A stretch of 64,000 bases of DNA from Arctopsyche grandis (Eukaryota; Arthropoda; Insecta; Trichoptera; Hydropsychidae). The notes under the pieces are model-generated. The model was not told the DNA's origin and made no database searches. It saw only the letters and a list, made by a program, of their open reading frames with translations. The position numbers and the translations under genes were made by a program. The stretch is taken from NCBI RefSeq assembly GCF_051622035.1, contig NC_135362.1:24141001-24205000 (forward strand), given 5' to 3'. This document shows positions 7,107 through 57,075 of this stretch, in pieces; position 1 is the stretch's first letter, and each line of letters starts with the position of its first letter.

Positions 7107-7110
7107 ATAT

Positions 7111-7651
7111 TGTAACGTGGGAACATAAAAGAGAGTATCCACTGTCTGCATTCGTGGGTGAAAATATAGACCCCGGATTAGGCTAACGGGACTCAGTAAG
7201 TTCCCTAGAAAAGGATACGCTGAGTTTTCACAGACCAGGGCGAGTGCGTGCGTAAGCAATAAACTCGCCAGGATATATCTTTAGGTACCTAGACCACTGG
7301 TTCTTAACCTTTTTGGAGGTACTTACCCCCACCAGTTTCATATGCGCATTCACCGAACCCTTCTCAATTGGCACCCAAATCATATGAGTCGGGTGTGTGT
7401 CTTGACATCTGCCGAACCCCTGAGACTGACTCATCGAACCCATGCTAAGAACCACTGACCTAGACAATAGACACATTAATGGATCGGGGAAGCTATGCTG
7501 TGCAACTTGTCCTTTATAAGGAGGTACACAAGGTAGATCGGATTATTCTGGAGTGAGCGGTGGTTCCGTGGGGACCTCTGGAATCGTTAAATAAATGCTG
7601 TGAAGCGATTTTGGCCTTTCATTTGGATCTTGAACCCACCCCTATGCAACA
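7111..7651 (+). mobile_element. Solo LTR of a gypsy-like retrotransposon, interrupted by a hAT MITE
   Basis: The sequence starts TGTAACGTGGGAAC and ends CTATGCAACA. It matches a second copy at 36368-36741 over its whole length except for the insert at 7295-7457. It contains a polyadenylation-like AATAAATG near the 3' part and no internal retrotransposon genes, as in a solo LTR left by recombination. The flanks ATAT and ATAC are compatible with an aged 4-bp target duplication, typical of gypsy elements. Confidence 0.8.
7295..7457. mobile_element. hAT-type MITE nested in the solo LTR
   Basis: The terminal repeats are CACTGGTTCTTA and, at the other end, TAAGAACCACTG. The 8-bp target duplication ACCTAGAC is exact on both sides (7287-7294 and 7458-7465). 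The uninterrupted LTR copy at 36368 carries a single CCTAGAC at the corresponding place, which is the empty site. The CAGTGGTTCT-type terminus and 8-bp duplication are hallmarks of the hAT superfamily. Confidence 0.85.
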
Positions 7652-7655
7652 ATAC

Positions 7656-11600: not shown

Positions 11601-14600
11601 AAGTACTCTTCTTGAACACCGGCAAAGACGATAGCATCAGACGAGAAGTAGTTACCTTGCTTCTCCAAAATAGCCGTGACGAGCTCGATTCCACAACGGT
11701 AAGCTTGCCACCAATTTCCCACCTGCCAACATTCATTCGAGTTTTCCAAAGTCGGGTGAGCCAACTCTTTCGGCGGCAAAAACTTCAACCACAAATTCTG
11801 ACCGATGTCACAGTACAGCAACTCTTGAGAAAGTTTGCTACGAGCGAAAGCCGTCAAGCAATTCAAAGCCGCCAAAGACTGCCTGAACAAAAAGTGCTTT
11901 TGGATTGAATTCGTAACACAATATACCAATTTACTTATGAGACTCCTCGATATGAAGTAGTTTTCCCATAAGAAGCCGTCTTTGAATATGTATAAGCTTT
12001 GCTCTAATAATTTCAAAACCATCACTGATGAGTTGGAATTGCCGTTGACAGGTTTGTCTGTATATCCATTGATATAGAGTTTGTCTAGTTGAGAGGTAGC
12101 GATATGACAGACAGCTCCGATTACTTCCAATGAAAGCTCTTTATCGCCTTTCAGGTCATATGCTAGAATATTAACGGAGAGTGTGCATATTGACAGTATT
12201 GAGTATTTTGCTCGGTGATGTAAGCTTTCGAAGGAAGATGATGTGTGATTTAGTAAGGCTGTGATTTGTTTAACGTGTTCTTGTCTGTCTCCGAAGCAGT
12301 CGTCTTTCCAATTCGAGAAGTACGTTACATACATTTCAGCAAGTACGATGACGATTCTGTTATCGCCGACAGTTGCCATCTCCCTATTAAGGGTCTCCAA
12401 GCAAAGAGAGACCATTGTTATTTTATTCTTGGTATTGATCGGAAATGGTAGGTATTTTATGATGATGCAAACAAAGTCCTTCCACGAGGTAAGTAGACTC
12501 AACCAACTAGGGGTTTCGTCTTGTATTTCGTCTTCGATTTGACGACCTTCGAAGGAGAATATGTACTCGATCCATTTCTTTAAATAGTCGTTGTTATGAT
12601 TGAAGAAATTCTCCAACGCACCTTCTAAACTTTTGTCGACTTTACCTTCGAAGATGAACAATTCAATTCCGACCATGTTGAAGATTTGCGAGTACGCTTT
12701 CAAGTCTGGTAAGATCTTTTGGAACAAAGGACTGCATAAGTATTCCCAAAAGTCAGGGTTTCCTCTCAAGTCTTTGACAAGCATTTGCATATTGTTTTTC
12801 CATAAAGCATGAAACAAGCTCATTATTCTACTAAGCAATGGATTGTAAAGGCTGTTTGTATTCTGCAAAAGAAATTACAAAACTTTAATAATACAAACCA
12901 ATTTTTTATGCATATGTATTGTAATGCAAAGTCTTACGTCTTTAACAGCTGATAGATACTCCGCCATATAAGTGAGGATTCCATCGGTCTGCTCATTTAC
13001 GTCGTTCTTGAGGAACATTCTGCTCTCGTCCTGAGGGTGTGACACTTTGAAGAAGACTTCAGTGAGACCCGGTTGATATTCTACGCATGACGCTACGAAC
13101 TCTAGTATGACAGTCTTCAACATTGGAGACTCAGTCTCGTCTCGCAGTCGTTCTAAGAACATGATGCGAATTTGGTGTGGTGACATGTCCAGGCATACTA
13201 AAAGCGACATACGAGATTCCTGAAATGATAAAATATTTAATATACATCGCAAGTAGTGAAGCAGGTTAGGTTACATGTTGGAAAACGAGTTGTCAAATAG
13301 AATAGAGTTGTGCAAAACTAACCAAAGCGAATCTTTTGAGTAGTTTGCAAGCCGTATTTGGGAGATTTTTGTTGAAAACGTGATTCATATAACCGGTGAC
13401 TGTCGGGACAATCTTCAAAGTGCCTTTTTGTTTCGGTTGAGTGTAGATCAAATGCTCCAGCGGACTGAATGAGGACTTGTCGCGAACTAGATGCTTCAAT
13501 CTCAAGACTTGCATCAACGCCGACATCGACATTTGAACCATTTTTATAGAATCGAATTCCAATCCGGTCGTCCAATTAGTCTCGTCTTCCATCAGCGACT
13601 GTATTTTGTCTTCACCTGGAATTATTTATTTATTTTATTCTAAACAGACCATTTTGGCATAACAGGAATTCCTAAAGCGCCACAATGGTCAAAAACATAA
13701 CAAAAAAAAAAACAAAATAACAATTAAACACAAATCAATACACAACGAAAATCACCCATCAATTATAAACCCTTATTTAATAATTATAAACAATAAATCG
13801 ACAACATTTGATAATATTTGTACATACCAAAAGCGACTAGCTTTAACAACGCCATAGCATTTTCTAAATTGAGCAGACTATGAAGGCAAGTCTTATTCAA
13901 CAGTCTATCTACAGGACGTGTACTTTGCTCCGGAGACAGTTGCAAGATTTTAAACAGATAAGATATACACTTAAAGTATAACTTTCGCTTCTGTTGCGCC
14001 GATTTAAAATACCACTCAGACATGTGTGGGAACACTTCCCTCAATATGAATATCAATCCGGGTAATAAGGCTCCCGTAGCAATTTCTTCACTATGCTCAC
14101 ACTGTAAACGAGAGACTGGTGAGTAACAAGTATGAATTTTAGCTAATTTCATTGTATGTATTTATAATATGAGAACTCACTTCGCAGAAGGCAGATATTA
14201 GATTCAGATATGAAGTGAAGACTTCGTATTCGCCTGATGGCAGTTCTACGTTCACCAGATAGAGACCAATCAGCGATGAATGGAACGACTCGCCATTAGA
14301 ATATTGAACTTCGGTCAAATTAGGATAGTCGACGTATGGAAGAAGACCAATGTTCATCAATCTATAATATAATATACATAACGTGTCAAAATTAGGTTAA
14401 TTTTTTAAGCTTGAGTCAAAGTGTAATCATTTCAGTTATGTTGTCAATACCTGCCGAAAATTTTGCTGGAAAATTTGGGCACCAAAGCCACGGAAACGTC
14501 TAAACAAGCGGAAATCAATGAAGGATACGGGGTTTTAGAATTGCAAAATCTGACTAAGATATCGAAGACGGTCTCGCAAGGACCGACCAACGAATCAAAT

Positions 14601-16849
14601 ACAGCATCGTTCGATTCCAATTGCAAGAGTACTGAATGTAAAGCTTTGATCCCCCAAATGGCTCTTTCGATATCTTCTGCGATGTCTAAATTTCCACGAA
14701 GGCAATAGTTGACGAGATGATTCAACTCTTTGTGCAGTATTTTCCAATAGGAAACGTTCACTCTGAAATGAATGAGAGTGGCGTTTCTTCTGTCCATTAT
14801 CGACGCTTGGGTTCTGCTTTTGATGACAAAGTCTTGATCATCATATGGACAGTAATCTTCAGTCAGTCTTACGCTATCTTCATTATTCATAACATTGGAA
14901 ATGGTGACCGCTCTCGGCTTATATCTTTCAGTGTAAAGCGGTAGATTATTTAATTCACGCAAGAGCTGAAAGCCAAATACAATAAAATATGATATCCACG
15001 TATTACAAAAATGATTTCAATTGAAATAATGGATATTACGATTTGCAAACTGTGCGGTGAAGCTTTCGAAAGTCCGATGATGAAAATTGAGAGTGCTTTG
15101 AAGTCGAACGGAAAGAACTCGAGAGCCGTATTCCATAATGACACTAGTCCAGCAGATGCAGGCTCGTCGATCGACTGCCAAAAGTTTTTAGCTAAGGTTG
15201 AGTCGATTAATAGTTCGCCGCAAAGTTCGATTGCACAAGGATGCAACGATATGGAGCCATCATTGTCGAAACGGTTGCATATGTTACACAGCAGTTGATA
15301 TACAGAGTTCCGGAATATAGAAGCGCACCTTGTGTTACCCTAAAATTGAAAATCTATTTTATTGAGCGGTATGATTTATTCTTTTTGATAAATTGTCTAA
15401 ACTTACGGAAAACATTGAATGTTTGCACATATTGTGTAGGAATTCAAATACTCTAAGTTGTAGCGCTTTTGTTCCGAATTGTTGATATTTATTTATGAAC
15501 GTTTCTTCGGCAATGGAATCCTAAAGCACATTGAAATTGATTTTAGTATGGCTAAATCAATGCATAAATATATTTAAGCTTTATAAGTGCAAAAACAAAT
15601 ATAAACCTCCAGCAAAAGTAGCATCCACGCTAGTAAAAGTGCACCGTGTTCTTCATTGTGTTGTAACCGAATGAGTTCATTCTCTACATCATCTTTTATA
15701 CTTTGTATTATAGTAGGCACTGCCGATCTAAAACATATATTATTTCAACATTATTAAAGTGTGTTTGTTAATAATCTATTACGAAATTACTGTCCACACA
15801 CCCTTTAGCATCGTTTACTATCTTAAAGAATATCGCAACTTCAGCGTAAATTATCTTCAAGACGGTTAACTTATTGGTGTCATCGAGATGTTTGTGGTAA
15901 ATGGGTTGCCGTCCAAAGTTGTGCATTTTGAATGTGGAAAACAACTGTTTGAATTCTTGAACGTATAGCTTATTTTCATCAATCACTAGTAATATGAGCA
16001 TCAACACTTCAACCTGCTCGCGCAAATTCCGTTCCATCCACAGCTTTTGCATTTCGAAAGTGACAACATCGCCATTTTTCGATTTGATAGGCGGATTCTC
16101 GGCGACCAAATACTCGAATTGTTTAATCAGGGATTTGCGTACATTTTCTAATTCTATGCTCTTTATGACTGAATTGAATTCGTTGTGGTACATATGATCA
16201 GAATTTTGTTTGAATTCTATTATCAATTTGAGCTGATTCAACATAAATAAACGCTCCGAGTTGTAAAATACCCAAACGTCTAATAAAAGTTTATTTGTTA
16301 GAACGTCCATAAATGAGAAGTTTTTCAACGCGCTTTCAACGGAACCGTGAAATTGATTCGATAAATAGTGACAAAATATATCCCACGTTTGAAAACTCTC
16401 CAAATCCTAAAATTTGCAATGTGTAAATTCATAATGGTTTATATAAAAAAAAATTTTAAAATAAGTTGAAAAGATTACCATAAACTGTTGTAGTTTTTCA
16501 ATGAATGATATAACTTTAGGGTATTCATTTTTTTTCGCAGCTAATTTAGTGTATGATTCGGGTGAACTAGGTTGAAAAAAGCACAAGCCTTTTTCCAATT
16601 GATTTTTGACGGTGTTAAGCTTTTTAGTGACTGTGCTACGATATGAGGCATTGTTCGAGCTGGAATTTGAAGTTAACCGCCAAAGTTCCCTCCAATAACT
16701 ATAACGAAATCAAGATATAATAGATTATAGGTTATGTTCAAAATATCAAAATGTCATTTGAATAGCCTTTTACAAGCGTACAAAAGATTTAAAAATAATA
16801 AGATATTAAAAATAAGATTGCAATACCAGACGGATTCGTGTTCTGCCAT
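8628..16849 (-). CDS. Nup188: Nucleoporin Nup188
   Basis: Nup188 is a large alpha-solenoid scaffold of the nuclear-pore inner ring, a partner of Nup93. Fifteen exons join in consistent phase: 16827-16849, 16479-16698, 15802-16406, 15607-15727, 15407-15520, 15040-15339, 14451-14965, 14181-14361, 13828-14101, 13323-13615, 12938-13219, 11456-12862, 11080-11228, 9564-9780 and 8628-9494. The total is 5568 nt, about 1855 residues; the human protein is about 1750. Recognisable blocks include YKPRAVTI (after the SH3-like region in the human order), LEFVASCVEYQPGLTEVF, LFHALWKNN followed by GNPDFWEYLCSPLF, and near the C-terminus MMSNRDKQLIRRELCAELP, all colinear with vertebrate NUP188. The ATG at 16849 follows a non-coding stretch and begins MAEHESV. 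The last about 175 residues are a Ser/Pro-rich tail with a poly-Pro run and a KHVTW motif (residues about 1802-1806). Exon 3's donor (AAAGG|GTGTGT) is the least certain junction. One intron carries the 880-bp fold-back element at 10046-10925. Confidence 0.93.
10046..10925. mobile_element. 880-bp fold-back element in a Nup188 intron
   Basis: Two arms of about 435 bp (10046-10480 and about 10490-10925) are near-perfect reverse complements. The ends are CACTGAGCAAC and GTTGCTCAGTG, and TTA flanks both sides (10043-10045, 10926-10928). This resembles a palindromic PIF/Harbinger-type MITE, whose target duplications are 3-bp TWA; a larger snap-back family is also possible. The element lies wholly inside the intron between exons 13 and 14. 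Identical short frames on both strands are a product of the symmetry, not genes. Confidence 0.8.
13630..13790. repeat. Short intronic repeat shared with about 3920-3995
   Basis: The intron between Nup188 exons 9 and 10 contains TTTATTTATT, then a CATAACAGGAA-like stretch and CGCCACAATGG. The 3920-3995 region has the same order (CATTACAGGAAGAAC, then CGCCACAATGG). Both look like fragments of one small repeat. Confidence 0.4.
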
Positions 16850-18710: not shown

Positions 18711-21700
18711 ATGCCACCAGTGAGCATAGCCGAATTACGTGGCGCCTCCCGGGAAACTGGAATCAGGGCCATCCTGATGGGGCCTCCCGGATCCGGCAAA
18801 GGGACTCAGGTCACTCAATCATTCAATCACTCGATCACTTTCTCTTGCACCTTCACCTTGAACCTACTCACAATACCTTTCGCGCCATACATAACCTAAC
18901 CTAACCACTATTACTTATTACATAATGCAACAATCGTTACTGATTTACACCTCATTCTCACAACCGATACTGGCGATTTCATTTTTCATTTGATTTTTAT
19001 ACAATACTTATGATTTGTTGCACAAACAAATATTTTGCTTGTTGCTTTCATATACGCGTCAACCGTTCAAGCGAAACGACACACTGTTTTATATGTGTAT
19101 GAATTGCTATATAAAAACGCAAATATATTTCCTTCAAAAAATTACGAAGCTTTTTCCAAATACTTGTGTGCTTATTAGAGAACCAAAATAATTTATAAAC
19201 TTTTGTACAAAATTATGATTATTCTAATATATGTATGATATTCAGTCGTTTTTTTTCTTTTGTAACTTTGTCCGAAGTTTAATCATTGTATTTTATTTTA
19301 GTCCAACATATCACATGTTAATGAATTTATATACATACATAGGTATTGAAAATATATGTAGGAACTATGAATTATGATAATTGTATTATCTAAAAAAAAT
19401 ATTTTCATTTGACCCCAGCAACTAGCAAATACACCCGGCGTTGCCCAAGCCATAATAAGCTAGCAATTTGTTATTGTTATTTTACATATTTTATTTTATT
19501 TCAATCGAACATGTACACTCGCCTTTACAGATCGCTTCAAAGCGACGAGTGTACTAATACAGATACAATACAATCAATACAAGCATTTATATACAATGCG
19601 AATTCTTACAAACATCTTCCACAGTGACATCTATGGAGAAATTTTTGCAGCATTTTATTATACAAATCGAGGAATCTCAAGACGCTGAATAATTTGAAAT
19701 TTGCAAGAGGTATTGAAAAGGAGATGCCAATTTTACAGGAACCGTTTCATTGAAAATCTGATAAATAAGCAAACTCTAATAGGAAACGATCGACTTACAA
19801 ATTATTTATTGATTTACATTGATATATACCAGGAAAGCCTAACAGGTAGACAATTAATTACAAACATTGCAGCATTTTTATTATATAAAGCGCTGTATTT
19901 CGAGATGCTGAAGAACACGAAATTAATTAATGAATTAATTCATAGAGATGTCTATGGATTTAGATTTCAATATAAATTTTTACATATTGTACATAAATCA
20001 AATTCAGATATTGGTGACATAGTGGGTCGGATGATTTTTGCCATTTTGATGGTGGAACCGTTTCAACAATGAAATCAGATAAATTGCCAAACTATGATAA
20101 GAAACGATCGACTCGGAGTCACAAATATCCAAGTCTGACTAGCAGTATTAAAGATTAGCACGGAATCGAACCCGGTAACCTCTCGGTGCTAAACATAAAC
20201 ACATGGCTGATCAGCAGCATTGAAGATTATACTCGGAATAAATTCTTTTCAATCGAAGTCAGCTCACAGGATCGAACCAGGTGACCTCTCGGTGCTTAGC
20301 ATAAATGCAACTACCGAGCCATTCTGCTGGCTAATTATATGAAAGTTTATAAATATACCAACGTATATTCAGAAATATGTGTACCTGGCGTCGCCTAGGT
20401 CATAATTTTCTTTCAAAACTTGCAAGTTTTGTTTCAAATCAATCACTCCATACATTTGATGATTGAACTTTGTTATATATTGTGGGAATTTAACCTTTCA
20501 CCGTGTTGCGTAAAAAAATAAAACGACACAGAATCTTGACAGTCTCATCAAACATTGATATCAACTGATAAAAAATGGGTATATATTGTTTGATATGTCA
20601 AACGATCAAAGAACAAAAATCAAACTTTCCTTATCGATGAATCAATAGTAACAATTACAATGTATCGAAAGTTGTAACTGTGTGATATTTGGAGGCTGTT
20701 GACATTCTATTTGCTGTATTATAGATTGTACGTGATCGAATTATTCGAGTGACATAATCATGTGGAATTTTGGTTTATTGATCAATGTTTCAATACGGAC
20801 TCGTTTTTTGAACACTGCATACAATTAAAAAAGTTCATTTTGCATTGTACTTTTTAGGCATCTAGAGTTAACCAGCGGCGTGGATTAGTGGTTAGTATAT
20901 GTTTTCGAGCAGAGTGGTCACGGGTTCGAGTACCAGTAGAGTCCGGCTGCTGGCCAGAACTTAGTTTGTGACTCCAGGTCGATCGTTTCTTATCGGATTT
21001 TGCAAATTTTTCTGATTTTCATTGATACAGTTCCTGTAAAATTGGCATCTCCTCTCATATCTCTCTTGCTAATCTCAAGTTATTCAGCATCTTGAAGTTC
21101 GTCAATTTGATTATAAAATTCTGCAAAAATTTCTCCATAGATGTTTGTATGAATTCGCATTGTATAAAATGCTTATGTATATTGATTGATTGTATTGTAT
21201 CTGTATTAGTGCACTCGTCGCTTTGAAGTGATCTGTTTTCTACATAGTCTCCAACTTTTTCAATATGCATACGTTCCAGTTGTCCACAAGCTTACGTATT
21301 ACTTCCAAGAATAAGGTTTTCGGCTAATGATGTACACGTTGAAACTATCTGTGTGTAAATAAATTGAAGAACGGAAGATGTAGAGAAGCTTTAACTCCCT
21401 CATATAATTGAAATAATTGTAGTATCTTATTCTTCTTCTAATGCCTTATCCGCATCCGGACGGTGGCGACCAGCTCGTCGATCATTTGTAGATATCCACA
21501 TGTCTTCAGCGGCTCGGAACAGACCTTCTGTGCTCATTGCTCGGTCGTTAAGCTTCTGCTTAGCGTCGAGAGGCACCGGGTTCGATCCCATGAGCTGACC
21601 TCGATTGAAAAGTATTTTTCTGTAGTGCTGATGGTCAGACTTGTATATTTGTGACTCCAAGTCGATCTTTTCCTATCAGAGTTTGCCAATTTTCTCTGAT

Positions 21701-23551
21701 TTCATTGTTGAAACGGTTCCCGATTAAAAATTGGCTAAAAATCCTTCCTACCTACTATGTCACCGCTATTTGATTGTACAATTAAATTTATGTATAATTC
21801 ATAAGATGTCTCGTAATTCAATGACTTGTAATAAAAATGCTGCATTGTAATTGTAATTTGTAATTGGTCAGGAAGGCGCATTGGGGTTTACCTGTACGGT
21901 CTTCCTGGTATATATGTAAAAAAATAAATATTAGCCAGCAGCATAGCTCGGTCGTTAGGCTTCTGCTTAGCACCGAGAGGCGCCGGGTTCGATCCCATGA
22001 GCTGACCTCGATTGAAAAGAAATTTTCTGAGTACATCTGTAGTGCTGCTGGTCAGACTTGGATATTTGCGACTCCATGTCGATCGTTTCCTATCAGAGTT
22101 TGCCAAATTTTCTCTGATTTCTAAATTTCTGATTTCCCGTTTAAAATTGGCCAAAAATCCTTCCTACCTACTATGTCACCACTATTTGAGTATGATTAAT
22201 GTACAATAAAATTTATGTACAATTCATAGATGTCTCGTTAATTTGCTAGTTTTTCAATGTCTCGTAATTCAGCGACTTTTATAATAAATAAAAATCTGTA
22301 TTGGTTGTAATTGGCCAGGAAGGCGCATTGGGGTTTACCTGTAAGGCCTTCTTGGTATATATGTAAAAAATAAAAATATCAGTACACATTCGCATGTTTC
22401 GAAGCCAAGAAATCTTCTCCCTGCCAATCCATTTTCTACTTTCTATTCGTATTTTGGACCCCGTGTCATCTTTCTCCGCTTGATGACAGAAACAAGTCCC
22501 CTGCCTATCCCTATAATGCCTAGGACAGCTATATTTGAGACTTTTTTGGTCCATGGGATCTTCAGCATACGCCTGTAGACCCATCCTGGGCTTCAGAGTA
22601 CACGTTTCACATCCATATAGTAACACTGACGAGACGTAGCCCAAACGCGGACGAATTGGAGTATAAATCAGTAATATTTTCATTGAAATTAATATTTAAA
22701 ACGCAAAATTTGCATAAAAATTTCTTTATTTGGTTATAAATAATATAGAATGTCGCGCTATTGATAAATATTTCAATGCCACACATACATTTGCACACAC
22801 TATACATACATAGAATCCACTTGTTGTTGAACGATATTTTAAAACTGTTCCAGGCGCCGCTTTTAAAAGAAAAATTCTGCGTTTGCCACTTGGCGACAGG
22901 CGACATGCTCCGAGCTGAAATATCTTCTGGATCTGACTTGGGACATGTTCTCAAGAAGGTCTTGGACGAGGGAAAATTAGTCAACGACAATCTAGTCGTC
23001 AATATGATCGAAAAGAACTTAGACAAGCCTGAATGCAGGAATGGCTTCCTTTTAGACGGTTTCCCACGAACAGTTCCTCAAGCGGAAATGGTAATAATAC
23101 AGGCGACAAACACCGACGTCTCGCGATTGAAGAATTCATTAATCATTTTGATTGACGTTTTCAGTTGGATACGTTGTTGGAGAAGCGACGCGCGTCATTG
23201 GATGCTGTTATCGAGTTCGGCATCGACGATTCATTGCTGGTGAGGCGCATCACCGGCAGGATGATCCACCCGTCAAGTGGACGGAGTTATCACGAAGAGT
23301 TTCATCCGCCGAAGCTGTCGATGACTGACGACGTGACCGGCGAGCCGCTCATCCGACGGTCGGATGATAATGCCGAGACTCTGAAGAAGCGACTCACTAC
23401 TTACCACTCGCAGACCAAGCCGTTGGTCGACTATTACGCGTTGCAAGGTCTCCACTATAGGGTAGACGCGTCCAAGTCGGCCGACGAGGTCTTCAGCAAA
23501 ATCGACAGCATATTCTTGAGGAGGAGTTCCGCTAGGCTCATGCATAAGTAA
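18711..23551 (+). CDS. Adk2: Adenylate kinase 2 (mitochondrial intermembrane space)
   Basis: AK2 interconverts ATP + AMP and 2 ADP in the mitochondrial intermembrane space. The exons are 18711-18809, 22854-23090 and 23165-23551, all joining in phase 0: 33 + 79 + 128 = 240 residues, against 239 in human AK2. Exon 1 carries the P-loop [10 protein letters not shown], split from the rest by a 4-kb intron directly after GTQ. Exon 2 starts [20 protein letters not shown] and ends with the AMP-binding [16 protein letters not shown]. Exon 3 has [17 protein letters not shown], the start of the LID, then [16 protein letters not shown] and LKKRL, with the LID arginines intact; it ends RLMHK. No N-terminal targeting signal is expected for this family. 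The ATG follows CGTTCAAA and is the only start close to the conserved beginning. All catalytic motifs are present, so the gene looks functional. Confidence 0.96.
19400..20430 (-). repeat. SINE cluster in Adk2 intron 1 (minus-oriented)
   Basis: At least two SINE bodies in minus orientation are visible, near 19720-19800 and 20060-20335. The second seems to carry two tRNA-like heads in series: two B-box complements, GGAATCGAACC and GGATCGAACC, about 100 bp apart. Motifs such as CCCGGCGTTGCCC near 19435 and CCTGGCGTCGCC near 20385 resemble SINE or Helitron ends. The whole block lies in the intron and has no supported coding sequence. Confidence 0.6.
20868..21060 (+). repeat. SINE with an alternative tRNA-like head
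   Basis: The body (TGACTCCAGGTCGATCGTTT, then GTTCCTGTAAAATTGGCA) is the common one. The head is different: TGGATTAGTGGTTAG as A box and GGGTTCGAGTACC as B box. The same second head appears on the minus strand at about 29770-29830. Two tRNA-like promoters attached to one body suggest two subfamilies. Confidence 0.65.
21530..22375 (+). repeat. Two tandem SINE copies in Adk2 intron 1
   Basis: Copies at about 21530-21920 and 21930-22375 share the head (GGTTCGATCCCATGAGCTGA), the body and a 3' tail of GGAAGGCGCATTGGGGTTTA ending in an A-rich run. They lie head to tail with only about 10-20 bp between them, and are the most intact copies in the window. Confidence 0.8.
22380..22690 (-). pseudogene. 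Fragment of a non-LTR retrotransposon (end of reverse transcriptase ORF)
   Basis: On the minus strand the frame reads [20 protein letters not shown] followed by ETCTLKP, the pattern ([12 protein letters not shown]) found just past the reverse-transcriptase core of many insect LINEs. Downstream the frame is disturbed and the finger-like part is lost. It is a dead fragment inside Adk2 intron 1. Confidence 0.6.
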
Positions 23552-30900: not shown

Positions 30901-33900
30901 ATCTCTTAACCAAATCTTAAATGAATAGGGCCAACCTTAACTTAACCTAACCTATCCTGACCTTTAAATAAATAAGTGTTGGCTGATAAGATATGTTTTT
31001 TTTTGTGAAAATATTGATAAAATAAAACTTAAAAAAATATATCTTAGCAGCCAACACCTATTTATTTAAGGGTTAGGATAGGTTAGGTTAAGTTAACCCT
31101 TTGGCTGCTACGAGGTTTTTCAATGTCCAAGCGAAAAATGCTAACATTTGTAATTATTTTGAAAAAAAATAAATATAATATTTTTTTTTTACATACTTAC
31201 TTCGCCGAACACTCGTAATTTTTATAATACTTTATATACATTTTTAAGAAGCAGTCGTGGACTCGTGCTCTCTCTTTCTGTCTTGCTTTTACATGCGTGC
31301 GTGCGAAAGAGATACCTACATATATACACTAAATAAGTTTTGACGATTTTTTTCCGACGCTTTATTCTTTTCAATAATCTATTTTTAGATATCGATGTAT
31401 CCTTACAACATGCGATATATTCGAAACAGGTAGCGGTCTTTCTCTCTTTCTTTCTTGGTTTTAATTGTGTACGTGTGAGCGAGACACACAAGGATGCGAA
31501 GTTTCTAATAATCAAATAATTTTTCAACATGTATCATAAACATTTTGTATGCATTTCAGTTGCATTTGATTGATTGCATGAATTCGTGACGTCTCGTGAC
31601 CTATATAATTGAAAGCGGATTTCTATTGTTTATTGCCATTTATTTTAACTCTGCAAAATGATATCGGACAGTGAAAGTGATGAAAGCGAAATAATAGCTC
31701 CTCGCCGAGGAACTCGACAAATCAGCAGCTCTACTGATTCTGAAAATGAATTTATCGACAATAATCAATTCCCAAGTAATAACTCCTTATATGACATTGA
31801 CAACGAACCCGAAATTTACTTTGATGATGAACCCGAAATTGAAGAGCTTTTATTTAAAAAATTGATAAATATTTATAAAGCTTGATTGAAAAATAAATAT
31901 AAATACGTATATAAAAAAAATGTTTCGTGCCACTGATGCGCTGGTGGCTCAAAGAAAGTATTGAAATACGACAATTAATGACGTCAACAACGATCGTCGT
32001 AGCAATCTTCGCCGATTTCAAAACAACGATTTATCGTTGTTGTAGCAATCAAAGGGTTAAGGTTGGCCCTATTAATTTAAGATTGGGTTGTTAGGGTCGG
32101 TATTATTCAGTCTCAGTGTCACACGCGAGAGCTGAGACAGTGAGACCGCATATTAAAGTAAAAACGTGAAGGTAGATCGCATACTAAAGTAGATATGTGA
32201 AGATAGACCGCATACTAAAGTAGCACCTGAAAGTTTAAGTTAGTCAGTTTGTATCAAAAGTCCATGTGGACAGATGCTTTTGCAATGAATAATGGGTTTA
32301 AACGAGTCTAATTTCGTTACTCCTGCCATTTGTCCTATCCGATAGGATCCTAAAATAGTGTCTAAGTTACGCTCTGTCCGTTACCGACCGAAATATAGAC
32401 ACAAAACAATATCCATTTTTCACATTCTCCAAATTCGTTAAATCAAAAATAGTTAGAAACAAACGTAATAAAAAATTATGTATTGCATTCCTCAAATATA
32501 ATTTAAAAAAGAAATAATAAAAAAAATATGATAGTGCATAGTTCAAAGCAAATCAAATATCATCGGACTCATGACAACAAAACATAAATCAAATATAATA
32601 GAAAACATAAATGAATGAAAACCAAACTTACTGGTTGATTTGCGTAAAAGTGATGATCGATGATGAGCAAAAGAAAGGCTTTCAAAATCTGCACATTATG
32701 TATATATATATATATATCTATATAGGCGGCAGCAGATCTTCGATAATTTAGATTTATATAGACATAGTTAATTATTGGATAGAAGTTATGTACAATTTCA
32801 TTCATATATGTTTATATATATAAATATGTAGGTGTATGAAAAGATTCGTTTTAAAACAAACAACACTCAGCGGTCTTCTCAATATTGAGAAACGTAAAAC
32901 GTAGACGTGCTTTGCGTGCTGCCGATAAAGAATTGAACCATTCTGTGAATTGTGCCCATCGTCTCCACCACCTGTCGAAATAACAATGCTCAGTGCCAAA
33001 ACGAACCCGGCTACATATATACACAAGTTTATAATTTTATCTTTTTAATATTAAAATAAATATAACATCAGTGTGGTTGTAAATAGTATATACGTGAAAT
33101 TGTGTATATATAATATATATAAATATAATTATTGAAACAAACTTTCTTTCAATCCAAATTAGCTTGAAGCGTTGGTAAAAAAGTTAATCTGAAAAATTTA
33201 GTGAGTTATTTATAGAGTTGTATGCATTTTTGAAAAATTATAATTTAGAAAAATATAAGTAAATAATTTGCATGAAATGTGAATGAAAATATAAGAAAGA
33301 GCCGATTCGTGTTGAAAAAAATAATAATGTGATATAACGGTCGATTTTGAGTAATAAATTTTTTATTAAAATTAACGACACTACGACTATGACTTTCAAT
33401 TTTTTAATAAATTAAATTTAAATTCCACTATAATAACTTCAATATTAAAAACCAATAAAATCGAAACTAATTTTTTTGGGAGTAAATTTGCATTAGACAT
33501 TTACATATAATCAACGCTCGAGGCGAATCAAATCGTGATTGTTCAGTTAAGGCCCAGTTTTAGAAAAACCCATATATTGAACGGGGTTCGGTGATTACTC
33601 CGCATAAGGGCGAAAACACACTGAATAGTACGGAACGTCACGTCCTTGGCTCCACGCTGTTCCCCAAACTGAATTCGGGTGTAGTTGCACGTGCAGAGTG
33701 CATATGTTTCTCCTGGTTCGGTGATTATAACTCACAAAGCGCTCGCCCAAGTCACATAAATCTCTATAACGGAACATCTGCCAGCCGAAAAGTCCATCAT
33801 ACTAACGAAAAGTCCATCATACTAGTGCCAAATATTCCGTATCCGCGATTTTCATGACAGAAATTGTCTTTTGGGCGATCGCTATGTGCGTAATAATCCA

Positions 33901-36900
33901 ATTACCGTTTCTCCTACATTTTTTCAAAAATGGGATTCACCATTATCGATCACTGTCAAGCAGGGATAAAATATAACCGAAAACACTCCAGGGGGTGATT
34001 TTTGGGACTGTGTACCATGTATATGAGTTAGGGGTGCTGCGTTTTTTATTACATACCTCATTTACGTTTCACTTACGATTACAATTCAGGAAAAAGTTTG
34101 CCTCTTATCCGATCGTTTTATTACTTTGCCATATTGCTCATTTTGGTCATCAATATAAGTAAATTGATCCTCCGCCATTACGATGGTGCAAAAATATCGT
34201 GTAAGACGCGTTTGATATCTGCCCGGCGAGATAGTCGTTGACGTTTATCCATCGTTTGTTTAATAGTTTTAAGCATAGATGGCAGTAGTAAAATAAAATT
34301 ATTGTTTTTATTCAAAATAATAATTTTATATACAAATTACAGAAGAGGTATGTTTTTAAAAAACTTTTTTTTATTACTAAGTTTTACCCATTAATTTTTT
34401 CGCACGTTTAAAAGTATCCAAAAAAACACGTACCACGTACCACTCAGTGTGTTTTCGTCCTAAAGCGATCTCGCACACGTCATTAAAATCTCAATTACGG
34501 AACATCTGGAACCCGAAAATTCCACCCATCAACTATCAACTATCATACTAACGAAAACTTAAGTGCCAGATATTCCGTATTCGCGATTTTTGTAGCAAAG
34601 ATTGTCGTTTGCGCGATCGCAATGTGTGAAATAATCCGTTTACCGTGCAATGAGACTTGAAGCAACAGCAGATTGTAACTACTGATAGCAGAGAGATGTA
34701 ATAAGAATAGAGGGGCCCTTACGAATAAATAATTGTTGTCAATTTTACGCGGCACGTCTTTATAAATACGCTACATCGCACGGAATACAATCGGATCAAT
34801 TTACTTTTAAAAATTTATCCCATGTTGTTTATTGTGTGTTTTTGAATGTATTGTGCAATTTTTACCGATGCTTGCCCATCTTGCGAGTAATATAAACAAA
34901 CAGAGAAGTTTTTATCGGACATAAGTCGAGTACCAAGCGTCAAATACGACTGATGCTAAAATTATTTAGGTCTGTCCGTGGACAGAATGTCACTTGACAA
35001 CAATATAACACTTAAAGCCACTTCTATTAATATTACATTTCTCTGACTGATGCCTCACAAACACATTTGTTTTCTAGTGGAGAAATAATAGCAAAAAAAA
35101 TTCTACAAATCTGTAAAATTTGTAAAATACTAATATATGGCATTCGGAAATTTCAATACCGACATATGAAGCGATTGGCCACATTGATCTGGGGAAAAAA
35201 TAGTTCCATGTACAAAAGCTCACTTCAATTTTTCAAAACAGATGTTCAAAAGCAACAGCCAATGCATGATCCTAGCATTGCACATCTTTTCCATGAAGTG
35301 GGGGCGGGCTTTTGTAAATGGAACAACTTCTTTTGGCGAATCAAACGTGGCACGTACACACGAAGCAACAGAGAATCCCACCATGTTTACCAACTAGATC
35401 TACTGGCACTTCAATTAGCCTTGAACTGACAGTACACAGGATTTGATCACCTCGAGCACTCATTATACCACTTAGAAATTTATTATGAACATATAAAATG
35501 ACAATCCTTCACCAAATGATGATTTATTAATAATAATTAACGTAAACATAAACGGTGCATTAAAACTAGAATCATATGAAAGTATCATACGCACATCAAA
35601 ACCGAGATTAGTACAAAGCGTTAAGGTTAATGGGACGTTTACATCGAAAAATATTGATCTACAATCTATATTATGTATAGCATAACGTTCCGTCGGATTG
35701 CAACATGCCGTTTTATATATCGCACATGTCTTCCATACGATTCAGTCTTTTTATGCACATGGTATTTATTTATACAAGTTAAAAAATTTCAATTAAAATA
35801 TGAATTTTTCAACCACAAAATCCGGATACTCACGGGAGCCTGATGTTGTTCGGAGACTGGCGTTTCTTCATCGTCGCTATTGGAACAGTCGGAAGACCAC
35901 GGTTCATCGGACGATGCCGCCGTCGAGTGGGGGTGGTTCGGAGTATCACAACTTAGAGCACGGGTTGTGCCACCTACGGGACCACCCATACCTCCTCCGG
36001 AATCCCAAGACGCTGCCGTACGCAACGATCTACGAACAATCGAGTATAAAAATACCCACTGCCTATGTATAATTACAATTACAAGTTTCAGTCGCTTACC
36101 GATGGTTGGGTTGGTGGTGATAGTATTGCTTTACTCGTTCACCTTTGAGTTCCTCGAGTTGTTCCAATAGCACTCTTTTGATTTGTGCTACCCATGCTTG
36201 CCTTACGGCTGCTGTGGAAGCTGTTAAAGTGTGCACCTCGGCACGACCCTGAAGCCACACTTCGAATCGTCTAGGATCGCCCTTCACAGACTCGGTCAAA
36301 CCTATCTGTGACATCTGCAAATAAAAAGACACTATTATAGTTTAAGAAATTGAACATCAAATAGTAATGTAACGTGGGAATATGAGAGAGTATCTACTGT
36401 CTAAATGGATTCGTGGGTGAACAATAGAGACCCCGGATTAGGCTAACGGGACTCAGTAAGTGCCCGAACAAAGGATTCGCTGGAGTTCTCACAGATATGC
36501 GCGAGTTCGTGCGTAAACAATAGACTCGCCATTGTAAACCTTAACGTGCCTAGACAATAGACACACTGACAGATCAGGGAGGCTGTGCTGTGCAACTTGT
36601 CCTTTATAAGGGGTTACACACGGTAGATTATAGATTCTGGAGTGAGCGGTGGTATCTGTGTGGACCTCCTGGATCGTTGAATAAATGCTGTGAAGCGACT
36701 TTGGCCTTTCATTTGAATCCTGAACCCACCCCTACGCAACAGTAACATCATCATCTTCAACCAGTAGCATTTTTGACTTTGCAGCCCAATTTTTTGTGAT
36801 GGAGTTAAATGTATTGACAGCTAAAGTAGAACTATCATTAGACAACCTCCAGTTGATCAAATCATGTGTACTGAAAGATATACTGCTGGTTAGACTTGGA

Positions 36901-39900
36901 AATTTGTGACTCCAAGTTGATCGTTTCTTATCAGAGTTTGCCAATTTACCTGATTTTCGTTGTTGAAACGGTTCCTCAGTGATTTATGTAATAAAAATGC
37001 TACAATGTTTGTAATTAATTGTCTAGGAAGGCGCATTGGGCCTTCTATGTAAAAAATAAAATACCGTGTACGGTACTATGGCGCTTTTTAGAAGGTTGAA
37101 CACCATACTGCACAGTTATAGATCAGCGTATGTGTAATAGTGTTACTATGATTCAATTTGGTTTGAGTCCAATTTGTTATACGTTTTCAAGTAAAGTCAG
37201 GTTTATGTCAATGCAAAACCCTATATGATTGTAAGTAGACTTCATACGTACTTGAAGATAGTGCTTAAAGTGGTAGGTGGCTTTATTATGGCTGGACTTG
37301 GCTACGGCTGGTTTGCAAAATAGTACAGCTTTCTGATAGAGGAAGACATGCCGCTGACGGGCACGGAGTCGAAGTCTCATGTCGCGTTTACTGTCCGTGA
37401 CGACCGAAAAAGAACCTTGCATCAATAATTCACCTTGTTGACTGAGATCCACCTGGAAAGTATACAAGACTTCATTTCATAATGCGAATTCGGCAGACAT
37501 TAATTAGTGCAATAAATCGGTACTCACAGGAAATCCTGTAATAGCAATTTGATGCATGGAATCATTGACACACTTGAGCACGACTAGCATGCACTCCAAA
37601 GCTTCTTGCAAGCCTTTACTGGTCGATCCACTTTCACTATATCTTAATAAATCCTGTAAATCGGTCGAATTATTATTAGTATTGCATTGTATGTTATATG
37701 TAATGTATAGAATTGATTTATTTTTGTCCTGTACCTTTAAAAGTAATTGGTATTTTGTTATCCTTTGAACTGGTTTGAGCAAATATGCAGCCAAAGGAAG
37801 TTTATGTCCTAATTTTAACTGACACGCCTGGAGGAATAGATGAGTGTCTACTAGAGCGGAACGTAGCCTTTCCGAGCGTGGTATGTTCTGACAATAGTAA
37901 CTATATAATCGGAAGAAGGTATCTCTCTAAAATAGAAAATAGAAAATAAACATAAAACACATTTACATATATTTGATATAAAAAAATATGAATTTGAAAG
38001 CTGATAACAAGTGGCAATTCAGAGGAAGAGGAAGTAGTGTACGCTGTTAAACCAAAGATAACACGAAATAACAATGAATAAATACCCAAAGCCTCATTAA
38101 AATAAAAAAATTGTCAAATTTGTAGTATATTGAAATTTTTTGATTATAACAGGTTTTTGAGATTTAACCAGCTTATTATACTTTTAAGTAGGACGCATTA
38201 TCATTTTTTTTTGTGTTGTGAAGTCTTCCAAGTAAAAGCTCATAAAAGATCATGGAAAAATGAATATGTACATATATGATTACTCCGTAACAAGCGATCT
38301 CGCGCACGTCACTAAAATTTCGATCACGGAACATCTGGCACGCGAAATATTGTACCAAAAAGAACCTGATAAGAAGTGCCAGATATTCTGTATTCGCGAT
38401 TTCTGTGGCATCGATAGTTGCAATGTGCGCAATAGTCCGTTTATCGTATATGTATATATAATACATAATCAACAGACAAGAAGGGATACAAAATATGTGA
38501 AAATTTAACTTACTTTCTGAACAAAACATAGAGCAACAAGTTCAGTAGTCGATATGCAATTTTCAATATCTTTCAAAAACACCTCCGAGTGAAACGTGAA
38601 GATTTCATCTAGATTACCGAAGAGTACATTCACTTTGTCGGTGAGTCCAGGTGGGATCAGAGCCGTATTATCCGGATTTTCCACTTCTTCTTTATAACCC
38701 TGAAACAATCAAAATTGAAAGATTAATACAATATAAGCCAATTGAATACTTAGTAGGTGATAAAATATTACAGAATCATCGGAGAGAGTGCTGAAGGCTT
38801 CAGTCCATTCCCGTAAACGATTATCATATAAATCGTATAAAGATTTCAAATCGTCTTTGCCGTTTTTATTAGTATAACTCTTCGGCTTATGAAGTTTGTG
38901 AGACGGTATGGGATCGGTATAAATGTTGCTTTTGGCCGATTGCCATTTCATATTAGAATAATCTCTATTGTTATATTTGGATAGTATTCGTTTGCAGGTC
39001 AGAGTTGAACTTGACGTTTTGGCATTCCAATCTGATGCTTTTTTAGTCTTGGCAAAGTTCGGCAAAGTGCTGTAGTGATCGCTCATTGTACTATTCCATT
39101 TGTTCATCTTTTTAGTATAGTCTTTAATCAAGGATGAGTATACATCGTCTGAATTCTTCCTGCAACACTTTTTAAGCGAGGAATAATGATCCGATTGTAA
39201 AGAGTTGCACGATGTTAAGTTTGGCAATGATGAATATAACAAATTGTTGTTTTTCAACGATCTAGTATAAATACTTTGTTTGAGCGTTGTCGTCGAAGAT
39301 GGAATTGACTTCAGTGAGGATTTACAAGATTTATTTTGAAGGTGTGGAGCGTTGCACAACCGAGTACAGCATCCGACAAAAGGAGAACCGAACGTGACGT
39401 TGTCGTTTAAAAAGTGTTCAAAATTTAAATCAGAAACATTGACTTTGGCAATATCTTTATCACTGGCACACTTGTAACTTCCAAAGCACATGATTTTAGA
39501 CTTGATCTTCGAACATCGTTTCTTTGTCGCACTGTAATCGAACAGTTTAACTTGGTTGGCGTAGTCACTGAACAGTGTCGATTCGGACGGGGTGCGTAAA
39601 AGTCTATTCTTTGTCCTCAATGCCTGCTTGAACTTTGTCAATCCACCGCATTCTGAATCCTCGTGCTGATCCATCCACTTGGAGCTTTTATCCAGACTGT
39701 ATTTGCCATGTTTCATTTTGGTGCTTTCACCACGAGATCGTTGCACCGACTGACTAGAATTTGCCGATGCAATGTTTATCCGACACGCTCGGAAGGACGC
39801 CGTGGTCTGTTAACCGTATTAATAAGTAGATATCCGCGTTCGTCTCTAGAGCGTTCTTGATTTATTATAGATTATATAAAGTAAGGTTACCTTTAATATA

Positions 39901-40031
39901 GCGCCGAGTTCTTGGACGTAAGCTCGCTCGGTGTGGAGGAGTTCGGCGAGGACGTGGCCCCGCTTTGCTTTGCGTGCTTCACTGTCTTCGGTCGAAGTGG
40001 TTGAACTCTCTGAACTGGCCGATGTTTCCAT
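27909..40031 (-). CDS. Mcf2l: Dbl-family Rho guanine-nucleotide exchange factor, MCF2L/DBS type (DH-PH-SH3 part; 5' incomplete)
   Basis: The DH-PH unit catalyses GDP release from Rho-family GTPases at membranes; DBS acts on RhoA and Cdc42. Core exons: 39891-40031, 38514-38699, 37735-37926, 37528-37653, 37252-37452, 36100-36314, 35834-36029, 28081-28213 and 27909-28000, all with matching phases. The DH starts in the first (HVLAELLHTERAYVQELG), continues GYKEEVENPD and VLFGNLDEIFTFHSEVFLK, and has the signature LLKPVQRITKYQLLLK and VNDSMHQIAITGF. The PH has GELLMQGSFSVVTDSKR and VKGDPRRFEVW, with the C-terminal helix QAWVAQIKRVLLEQLEELK. A Ser/acidic linker precedes the SH3 (LADYCAVGPSEVSLRDGD, GWWFVKL, GEGWAPAAYLNHL). 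Order and wording match vertebrate MCF2L closely. The acceptor at 40032 shows upstream exons exist; no CRAL-TRIO or spectrin exon was found to the right within the window. The last intron but one is 7.6 kb. The extra exon 38772-39806 is listed separately. Confidence 0.9.
28422..29225. mobile_element. MITE of the GTAGTTGGCCACTT family carrying a piggyBac insert
   Basis: The left end (AATTGGCCAGTCTAAGCATA, then GTAGTTAGCCACTTG) pairs with the right end (CAGGTGGCCAACCACTATAG, then CCAATTGATGGCC). A shorter relative is at 40097-40260. The middle is taken up by the piggyBac-type element 28511-28995, so the host MITE was originally about 315 bp. Confidence 0.6.
28511..28995. mobile_element. piggyBac-type MITE (copy 3)
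   Basis: The ends CCGTTTGCCCGCGGCC and TTGCCGCGGGCAAAGGG are flanked by TTAA on both sides (28507-28510, 28996-28999). No transposase frame. It lies in the long RhoGEF intron and inside another MITE. Confidence 0.8.
29268..29998. mobile_element. GTCTGTTCATAC-family MITE with a SINE inserted
   Basis: The left end (TTTATTCATACTGGTACAGC) pairs with the right end (TGCTGGATAGTATGAACAGA). A minus-oriented SINE of the alternative-head subfamily occupies about 29600-29850. The family is shared with the element at 18025-18414. Confidence 0.55.
31097..32056 (+). mobile_element. Internally deleted piggyBac-like transposon
   Basis: Terminal CCCTTTGGCTGCTACGA and TCGTTGTAGCAATCAAAGGG-type ends are flanked by TTAA (31093-31096 and 32057-32060). 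At 960 bp it is far shorter than an autonomous element of about 2.5 kb, and it keeps only a short reading frame resembling the acidic start of a transposase (31658-31885). Confidence 0.8.
31658..31885 (+). pseudogene. Remnant of piggyBac transposase N-terminus
   Basis: The frame encodes 75 residues starting MISDSESDESE, followed by a short basic patch and several DNEPEI or DDEPEI stretches. An acidic, Ser-rich N-terminus of this kind is usual in piggyBac transposases. The catalytic DDD core is wholly missing, so it cannot be active. It lies within the TTAA-flanked element. Confidence 0.5.
33605..34462. mobile_element. TAAGGGCGAAA-family MITE (copy 2, long)
   Basis: It starts TAAGGGCGAAAACACACTGA and ends CAGTGTGTTTTCGTCCTAA. 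Internal family motifs such as CATTATCGATCACTGTCAAG and CTCCAGGGGGTGATTTTTGG are present. At 858 bp it is longer than the other copies, probably through extra insertions. It is within the RhoGEF intron. Confidence 0.65.
34689..35045. mobile_element. hAT-type MITE (copy 1)
   Basis: The ends CAGAGAGATGTAATAAGAAT and ATTAATATTACATTTCTCTG are inverted. The flanks ACTGATAG and ACTGATGC agree in six of eight positions, an aged 8-bp target duplication. An inverted second copy with an exact duplication lies at 41900-42185. Confidence 0.7.
36368..36741 (+). mobile_element. Solo LTR (374 bp) in a RhoGEF intron
   Basis: It starts TGTAACGTGGGAATAT and ends CTACGCAACA, with a perfect 4-bp duplication GTAA on both sides (36364-36367, 36742-36745). 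It is the same LTR family as 7111-7651. No internal retrotransposon sequence remains. Confidence 0.85.
36868..37066 (+). repeat. 5'-truncated SINE in a RhoGEF intron
   Basis: The common body (TGACTCCAAGTTGATCGTTT, then GTTGAAACGGTTCC) and the tail GGAAGGCGCATTGGG with an A-rich end are present. The tRNA-like head is missing, consistent with incomplete reverse transcription. Confidence 0.7.
38772..39806 (-). CDS. 345-codon in-frame exon inside the DH domain of the RhoGEF gene
   Basis: This exon lies between the first two DH exons. It has an acceptor (GGTTAACAG|ACC) and a donor (GATTCT|GTAATA) and is phase 0 at both ends. It is open for all 345 codons in AT-rich DNA, with coding-like codon use. 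The encoded segment is basic and Ser/Lys/Tyr/Asn-rich, with no domain I recognise. It contains repeated short motifs (LYSSLPNL, HYSSLKK, VYSSLIKDY, HYSTLPNF) and eleven or so scattered cysteines. The flanking introns are 84 and 72 nt. Options: an included insertion between the ELGAILK and GYKEEV halves of DH helix 1, a cassette exon, an alternative first exon (for example from the MKHGKYSL methionine) or a last exon (stop at 38709-38711 if unspliced). The sequence alone cannot decide. Confidence 0.7.
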
Positions 40032-40096
40032 CTGTAAAGATAAAAAAAGTGTTACAATTAATACAACGTACGGCTTTGATTCACATAAGAGAGAGA

Positions 40097-40260
40097 TTAT
40101 AGCAATTGGCCGGGGCATAGCATAGTAGTTGGCCACTTACATAGATCTCCAACTCAAAAGTAGTCATATTCCCATTGATAAACGTATCATTTTGGGCATA
40201 TAAGATTCTCTCACTAAGTTCAAGTGGTCAACTACTATATACTACAGACCGGTCATTTAC
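40097..40260. repeat. Short MITE of the GTAGTTGGCCACTT family
   Basis: The left arm (CAATTGGCCGGGGCATAG, then GTAGTTGGCCACTT) and the right arm (AAGTGGTCAACTACTATA, then ACCGGTCATTTAC) are inverted copies. It lies immediately upstream of the first visible RhoGEF exon. Confidence 0.6.
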
Positions 40261-41899
40261 AATTCATTTCAATTTTATAATCAGTAAATTGTACATATGT
40301 TATAGATAGAATATGAAAGCTAGCTTTCGATAATAAATCATATGTAAATGGGACCAAAAATTTATTGATCATTCGATATGGAATATATTGACCTGGAAAG
40401 CAATTTGAGCTAGCTTAGTCTACCTTTTGCCTAATTAATTCTGTCATTAATTTTAATGCAAATTTTACTTAAAAAATAAAATCTTACTTATAGCATTATA
40501 AATAAATGGCATGGTTATTAAAAATATATATATACATATGTAACAAAAGTTAAATTCATAATATAATAAATCAGGAAAATAAGCAACATGTTGTTTATTT
40601 ACAATAGTGTTTTAGTATGAAATTTAATAAGAGACAATTTTTGGCCAGTTGATATTGTAGGAATTGGGCATTTGAATTAAAGCCTAAAATTAAAATATTG
40701 CAGATTGCTATCAGTAAGAAGTGAGCAAGAGCACCATGGATTGCACACCAGGTACATATTATTTATTATATGTATATAAAATTTAGCATTAATATTGATC
40801 AGATTAAAAATAATTTAAAACCTCATAATATTTCTCTAATTAAAAATTGTATAAGCATATGAATTAAAATACAGGTAAATTAAATTTAAATAAAGAGGCA
40901 GAAACAAAATCCCCTTTACTTCATTATGATGAAATAATTTACTTTTTATTAGAAGCTGTCAAACTCAAATAGAAAGTCTCATCTGAACGATTATAACCAC
41001 AATGTGAACTCTCTAATCGTCAAAAATTTCATCCGCAATAAAACACACGTTTTGCAATAAAAATATATTGAAAACGGACATGGTCACAGTCGGTCACCTT
41101 ACGGCGCCATTATCAACTGTCATTTCAAACATCAAAATCAAAATGCCGGCAATTAGCAATAAATTACCATTCTAATACACATAACATAAACCCATATTGA
41201 AATTTGCACAATTGTAATTCGGCGCCGACAATTCGACTTTGAGGTTACGAATGCAAATTTAAAAAAAGTCGTTACAGGAGGTCGTAAACCGAGAGACAAT
41301 ACACGTGACAAAGGCGGCTCGTGAAACACACGAGTGAATAAACAATATTTTAATATTTAAAAACACAGTGGCGTGCCTTTTTTTCGAGCAAGGGAAACGC
41401 GTTAAAAAGGCGATATCCACATTTGAACACTTCGTATATGGGGTCGTCCATTTCACAATAATATAAAAATATACAATACAACCGAACGCCGACAAAAGGG
41501 GCGTTCAACTGCGGGCTCGCGTACCGACAGGGGTAACAAACGCCATTTACGTCCTAACGCGCACTTGGGAAGCGCTCCTGCAACTGGGGGACGCGACCCT
41601 TGTAATATTTACCACAAAACCCACAATATGAACTAAGTGTTGCGTCCTTAGAAGGCAAATACGATATCTCTACATTACCTAATTCATCGGAGCATCGTTT
41701 GAAAGATTACAAAAAATAATTTTTCATTTGTAACAATTACAAATGTAAAATTTCCCATTTGTGTTTTGCCCGTTAATATTTATTTCAACGGGTGATTTTG
41801 GACAGGAATCGACATGTAAAAATTTATAACTTTTGTACATTGCATTGCCAAAAAATGTGACGTTATTTTGAAAAGTTTAATGAAAATAGGAACAAAACT
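40261..41899. other. AT-rich sequence upstream of the first visible RhoGEF exon
   Basis: This is presumably intron of the RhoGEF gene. A more GC-rich patch at about 41080-41650 holds no convincing exon. No Sec14 or spectrin coding was recognised. Confidence 0.4.
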
Positions 41900-56814: not shown

Positions 56815-57075
56815 CATATTTAAATAGTGGTGACATAATGGGTTGTAAATTTGATGAGGAACCGTTTCAACAATGAAATCAGATAAATTGGCAAACTCTG
56901 ATAAGAAACGATCGATCTGGAATCACAAATATCCAAGTCTGACCAGTAGCACTATGGAAATACTCAGAATAAATTATTTTCAATCACGGTCAACCTAGCG
57001 CTTGAACTCGGAAACCTCTCTGAGATTAGCATTAACGCAACCATCGAGCTATATGTAATGCTGGCTGTTTTAAAT
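56815..57075 (-). repeat. SINE, minus orientation
   Basis: The body (GAACCGTTTCAACAATGAAA, then AACGATCGATCTGGAATCAC) and a tRNA-like head with a degraded B box (GCTTGAACTCGG) are present in reverse. It abuts the broken right end of the hAT element. Confidence 0.7.

Follow-up and report, generated by a model that had tools for sequence, protein, structure and literature searches.

A candidate cassette exon of 345 codons between two DH-domain exons of a DBS/MCF2L-type RhoGEF gene in Arctopsyche grandis

The 3' part of a RhoGEF gene was found on the minus strand at 36-40 kb of the window, a 64-kb stretch (C8:24141001-24205000) of the Arctopsyche grandis genome (475.7 Mb, 189 contigs). Between the first two DH exons of this gene lies an open segment of 345 codons that is very probably protein-coding and in frame with both neighbours. 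With moderate confidence, the segment (E2) is interpreted as a cassette exon with weak splice signals in a DBS/MCF2L-type RhoGEF gene; it would be skipped by default, and its inclusion would interrupt the DH domain with a basic, disordered stretch. The organisation of the locus in window coordinates is as follows.

39891..40031, minus strand: E1, DH exon with conserved region 1 (METSASS...HVLAELLHTERAYVQELGAILK); 141 nt, phase 0/0, ends ELGAILK; DBS alignment; Pfam RhoGEF 0.0095, below cut-off
39807..39890, minus strand: putative short intron; 84 nt, GTAACC...TTAACAG
38772..39806, minus strand: E2, candidate cassette exon; 1035 nt, 345 codons, phase 0/0; basic Ser/Lys/Asn/Cys-rich insert
39714..39716, minus strand: Met31, the first ATG of E2 that is in frame; context CACCAAAATGAAA; could serve as an alternative start
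39063..39236, minus strand: stretch of E2 with four YS[ST]L motifs; residues 191-248
38700..38771, minus strand: putative short intron; 72 nt, weak donor TCT/GTAATA, strong acceptor, GC 24%; if retained, in-frame TGA at 38709-38711
38514..38699, minus strand: E3, DH exon GYKEEVENPD...CFVQK; 186 nt, phase 0/0; DBS alignment; Pfam RhoGEF 0.00062, below cut-off
37735..37926, minus strand: E4, DH exon RDTFFRLY...YQLLLK; Pfam RhoGEF 1.5e-13 on the ORF holding E4; DBS alignment
37528..37653, minus strand: E5, end of DH; DBS alignment
37252..37452, minus strand: E6, PH domain part one; Pfam SOS1_NGEF_PH 4.5e-15 on the ORF holding E6
36100..36314, minus strand: E7, PH domain part two; Pfam SOS1_NGEF_PH 1.6e-11 on the ORF holding E7
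35834..36029, minus strand: E8, presumed Ser-rich tail exon; open up to a good donor CCC/GTGAGT, boundaries by inspection, no domain

Joining of E1 and E3-E8 with the segment skipped gives 419 codons without a stop, and joining of E1-E8 with the segment included gives 764, also without a stop. In a PDB search, the joined DH-PH peptide of 313 residues lacking the segment matched mammalian DBS (1rj2/1lb1) over residues 1-311 (E 1.5e-95), and conservation at this level suggests a working GEF. DBS is the nearest of the solved RhoGEFs, at 323.6 bits versus 194.9 bits for Trio. In both DBS alignments examined, the E1 and E3 sequences are contiguous with zero gap at the ELGAILK/GYKEEV junction, in agreement with the sequence-only reading, which had described the flanking DH exons as contiguous in MCF2L. 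The locus thus resembles DBS/MCF2L (1rj2, 1lb1, 1kz7) in its aligned DH-PH residues and in a Sec14 exon upstream on the same strand, but differs from it in the 345 codons that separate the two halves at this junction. The DH domains of Trio and Kalirin (1nty, 5o33) are related (E 2.6e-56 and 2.4e-35), but the match is clearly weaker than that to DBS; judged by their ranges, these alignments (2-308 to 13-309 and 2-182 to 6-179) leave no room for an insert. A search of the prokaryote and viral collections with the DH bait found no relatives.

The Sec14 exon (CRAL_TRIO_2, E 4.7e-10) lies beyond the window, some 61 kb upstream of E1, at approximately 24.2427 Mb of C8 in the region designated L006. 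Thus, the host gene is probably a Sec14-DH-PH gene of the DBS/MCF2L type, and the Sec14 exon and E1 would be parts of a single mRNA, separated in the gene by about 58 kb of intron sequence. No N-terminal domain was detected within the window, as a Pfam search with three minus-strand frames of 39999-64000 gave zero matches. Upstream candidate exons (ALEKFSGLM... and RYTSLKEEIL...) resemble spectrin repeats by eye; the Pfam scan of L006 gave no spectrin match. An open stretch of 107 codons, with abundant P, E, D, S and T, is located between the Sec14 exon and the spectrin-like stretches (L006:2162-2482; C8 24242162-24242482, minus strand) and is possibly a second disordered exon of the same gene. 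The available part of a spectrin-repeat survey lists Trio but no Mcf2l in Bombyx and Drosophila (PMC12193018), whereas the A. grandis genome has a DBS-type gene.

The segment belongs to a 366-codon stop-to-stop ORF (38709-39809, minus strand) that ends at the TGA at 38709. The proposal of a 345-codon in-frame exon of phase 0/0 at 38772..39806 was borne out, as all 1035 nt are open and E1, the segment and E3 are all multiples of three in phase 0. In 60 order-1 and 60 order-2 Markov-simulated windows of 64 kb, the longest ORFs reached 253 and 204 codons, respectively. None of 3,000 order-1 copies, 3,000 order-2 copies and 2,000 shuffles of the segment stayed open, and its other five frames contain 15, 29, 20, 17 and 18 stops. 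The Fourier signal at N/3 was 6.84, and the highest value among 454 overlapping background segments was 6.38; fragments of three long ORFs elsewhere, presumably coding although lacking a Pfam match, gave 5.08, 6.04 and 2.3. The simulated windows and the three-base periodicity rule out a chance ORF.

Codon usage was less consistent with the open frame. With a training set of 1,222 codons from six long ORFs, two of them Pfam-supported, the open frame scored -0.014, which none of 1,362 background frames reached, but a second forward frame and one reverse frame scored 0.045 and 0.069, respectively. When only synonymous choice was scored, the open frame gave -0.034 (2 of 1,362 background frames were as high) and a second forward frame 0.044. 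As the same score placed the true forward frame first in four of five DH-PH exon pieces, the failure of the open frame is a real point against the segment. The coding signal is also ambiguous in the first 30 codons of E2, upstream of Met31 (LLR -7.1). At the other end, the 20 codons past the donor scored -19.0, lower than any of 59 bins within the segment (minimum -12.2) and than 95% of 378 open noncoding bins (5% point -15.1), which indicates that coding ends near 38772. The GC content drops near the same position, from about 34% to 17-27%.

Splice sites of eight exons were scored with generic position matrices not trained on A. grandis, and percentages refer to 3,624 GTs and 2,855 AGs. For the segment, the acceptor is mediocre, as 6.1% of AGs score equally well (0.1-8.5% for the other seven exons). 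The donor TCT/GTAATA has neither the guanine at -1 nor that at +5, is the weakest among the eight exons, and is matched by 45.5% of GTs (0.8-10.6% for the other seven). Hence, the splice sites called plausible in the sequence-only reading were half right, with a mediocre acceptor and a donor that scores like a random GT. A better phase-0 donor was sought and rejected, since the sole phase-0 GT with a positive score within the ORF, at 39747, is close to the ORF start. The donor of E1 is good and the acceptor of E3 is strong; weak sites on a frame-preserving exon placed between them are as expected of an exon that is skipped by default. The flanking gaps of 84 and 72 nt are short, as had been pointed out, and their sizes fit three (81, 75 and 70 nt) of the five other introns that the gene has in the window, the remaining two measuring 587 and 937 nt. 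However, the routine inclusion proposed from these sizes is unlikely given the very weak donor, and regulated or rare inclusion fits better. Notably, a strongly periodic open segment ends here at a random-like GT with neither flanking guanine (38771-38772).

The encoded peptide consists of S 16.2%, K 12.5%, N 7.8%, T 7.5%, Y 4.6% and C 3.8% (13 cysteines), with K+R-D-E of +28, consistent with its earlier description as basic, Ser/Tyr/Lys-rich and cysteine-containing. Its charge-hydropathy value of 0.402, compared with a boundary of 0.442, falls on the disordered side of the Uversky line; judged by composition only, the segment is probably mostly disordered. The four YS[ST]L motifs reported before are present at residues 191, 208, 223 and 245. 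Four such motifs occurred in 0 of 20,000 shuffles, yet some 3-of-4 word occurred at least four times in 1,038 of 2,000 shuffles; the repeat is therefore enriched only if the motif is fixed beforehand, and this is suggestive only. Five Grb2-like Y-x-N matches were also noted post hoc.

A Pfam search with the segment gave nothing above the curated cut-off (PF08126 at 0.018 and PF04899 at 0.078 were below it) and a PDB search nothing significant (three flavodoxins, E 2.5-2.7), and a known domain was ruled out on these grounds. A phage, viral or prokaryotic origin was likewise rejected, as there was no match in such collections, two of these searches reaching close relatives only. Genome searches with the segment gave a single match at the protein level, with E values allowed up to 10, and a single match at the DNA level; these counts are lower bounds, and very common words were skipped. 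Matches to the rest of the window were at chance level only. With a single copy found by both searches and no sign of spread, an ORF derived from a transposon or repeat was discarded. A membrane-anchored nested product, considered on account of the hydrophobic 20-aa end at LIFQF, is unneeded, as some other pre-acceptor stretches translate into similarly hydrophobic sequences.

The closest known case is exon 8 of Drosophila Pebble (Ect2), which encodes 458 residues in isoform Pbl-B, is alternatively spliced and lies in the middle of BRCT2 (PMC10238489). In that paper, exon 8 is predicted by AlphaFold to be unstructured, apparently without hindering the BRCT2 fold; it is present in 233 of 948 orthologue sequences, almost exclusively from insects, and is more diverse among drosophilids than the remaining protein, and the long and short forms are used to a similar extent (PMC10238489). 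Both cases concern a RhoGEF with one large in-frame exon (458 aa in Pebble, 345 in the candidate here) that interrupts a conserved folded domain; the Pebble insert is predicted to be unstructured, and E2 is probably so by its composition. In A. grandis, the putative exon has 1035 nt, phase 0/0 and a gap-free DBS junction. They differ in that the Pebble insert is in BRCT2 rather than the catalytic DH and in another RhoGEF family. For Pebble, the splicing, the protein and a distinct localisation were shown experimentally, whereas E2 is known from sequence alone. If spliced, E2 would be of the same kind as Pebble exon 8, in a new position within a catalytic domain. The claim that no Dbl-family protein with such an insertion had been described thus needs to be narrowed in view of Pebble (PMC10238489), but it held for the DH domain itself: among the literature matches listed (titles and abstract starts, with subscription journals largely missing), there was no published insert inside a DH domain, nor any insect MCF2L exon. 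The accessible part of a Tribolium flipflop paper (PMC5649079) was unrelated to the RhoGEF locus and was set aside.

Some splice variants of human MCF2/DBL carry a short insertion close to the DH, which is a lead only. Conserved region 1 of the DH domain contacts the GTPase switch region. The insertion point of the segment is located after conserved region 1 and, from DH anatomy, presumably in the first DH helix. By default, the donor of E1 would be joined to the acceptor of E3, and the resulting DH-PH would be an ordinary one. The segment may be included between its two minimal introns in a particular tissue or stage despite the weak sites, presumably with the help of splicing factors. Inclusion would keep the frame and introduce a 345-residue basic, mostly disordered loop into the first DH helix. 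Such a loop would either be tolerated or break the helix and silence exchange, and a mid-helix insert could destroy the fold outright. The insert would most likely add docking or phosphorylation sites and localisation signals, and lower or gate exchange activity; the favoured reading is that inclusion is regulated, reduces or gates activity and alters location.

The cassette-exon reading is favoured by an ORF beyond chance with strong periodicity, by phase 0 on both sides and by the intron-like gaps. It is further favoured by the single copy, the end of coding near 38772, the absence of AATAAA between the TGA at 38709 and 37722, the position on the disordered side, and the precedent of Pebble. 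The random-like donor, the off-frame codon usage and the ambiguous first 30 codons count against it. The last of these would be accommodated if transcription started in or just before the segment and translation at Met31 (39716), with splicing to E3. The product would begin with 315 aa of unique sequence, would lack conserved region 1 in its DH-PH, and would probably be GEF-dead or a scaffold. The Met31 context, CAAAATG, is a good ATG context for insects, and an initiator-like TCAGTC at 39753 is the sole one in 39600-40300. However, such matches are common (90 on the same strand of the window), an in-phase acceptor is also present at 39806, and the same weak donor is needed; an alternative first exon is therefore considered unlikely. 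A constitutive exon, by which the DH of DBS in this lineage would be permanently interrupted and either tolerate the segment as a loop or be catalytically dead, appears a little less likely again. It agrees with the preserved frame and with short introns on both sides, like three other junctions of the gene, but not with a donor weaker than any other scored beside a good E1 donor and a strong E3 acceptor, nor with the conservation of the remaining DH-PH.

Use of the acceptor but not of the very weak donor would make the segment an alternative terminal or retained exon that stops at the TGA at 38709, giving a protein without DH-PH or a transcript targeted for decay, and the frame is indeed open for 20 codons beyond the donor. 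These codons, however, score as intron and are hydrophobic like several other pre-acceptor stretches; the TGA is just 9 nt from E3, and the nearest downstream AATAAA, at 37722, is about 1 kb off, beyond E3 and E4. Such an exon is judged improbable. The same 9-nt spacing and distant AATAAA weigh against an independent single-exon nested gene on the same strand, as do the phase match with both neighbours and the intron-sized gaps; despite an orphan ORF with one genome copy found and its own well-placed ATG, this alternative is very improbable. Least probable of all is that the segment has no function today, being either a coding exon that decayed recently or an exonised relic. The weak donor, codon usage that is not frame-specific and the lack of a homologue in the collections searched would suit it, but 345 open codons with strong periodicity would not.

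A more specific form of the cassette-exon reading, in which splicing of a 345-aa disordered module into the first catalytic helix would gate or inactivate an otherwise active DBS-type GEF, and tandem Tyr motifs (YS[ST]L and YxN) would permit phosphorylation-dependent control, is put forward as a speculative proposal that is rather unlikely. If it is true, we know of no earlier example of a large natural insertion in a DH helix. Presence of the segment in real transcripts would mean that a Dbl-family catalytic helix can bear a natural module of several hundred residues, and would provide a splicing switch for Rho signalling. Together with Pebble exon 8, it would point to disordered cassette exons in the interior of folded domains as a recurrent means of RhoGEF diversification.

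Several further features were observed. In the genome, RhoGEF matches on the small contigs C171 and C153 (L040 and L041) cover nearly the whole profile in uninterrupted frames of 474 and 1717 aa, unlike most matches on large contigs; these contigs are perhaps from a contaminant or symbiont. Interspersed repeats occur within and near the RhoGEF gene. Much of the E6-E7 intron (36317-37251) matches elsewhere in the window, e.g. at 7108-7294, 7459-7654, 20054-20148 and 56855-56949, and the intron after E3 contains a repeat (38292-38447) with 69-71% identical copies at 34463-34646 and 33737-33851. A 78-aa ORF at 31649-31885 (LCKMISDSESDESEIIAPRRG...), which has no Pfam match and which we take to be piggyBac-like, is also an interspersed repeat; its identical amino-acid sequence is found again near C8:24263.6 kb on the other strand. 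No RNA families or tRNAs were found within the 64-kb window. Exons of a Nup188-type nucleoporin are located at 14444-16406 on the minus strand (Nup188_N 9.1e-08; Nup188 subdomain III 0.0001, below cut-off), and the adjoining 497-aa ORF at 11381-12874 has no Pfam match. Adenylate kinase exons are located at 22749-23551 on the plus strand (ADK 1.8e-29, ADK_lid 1e-14).
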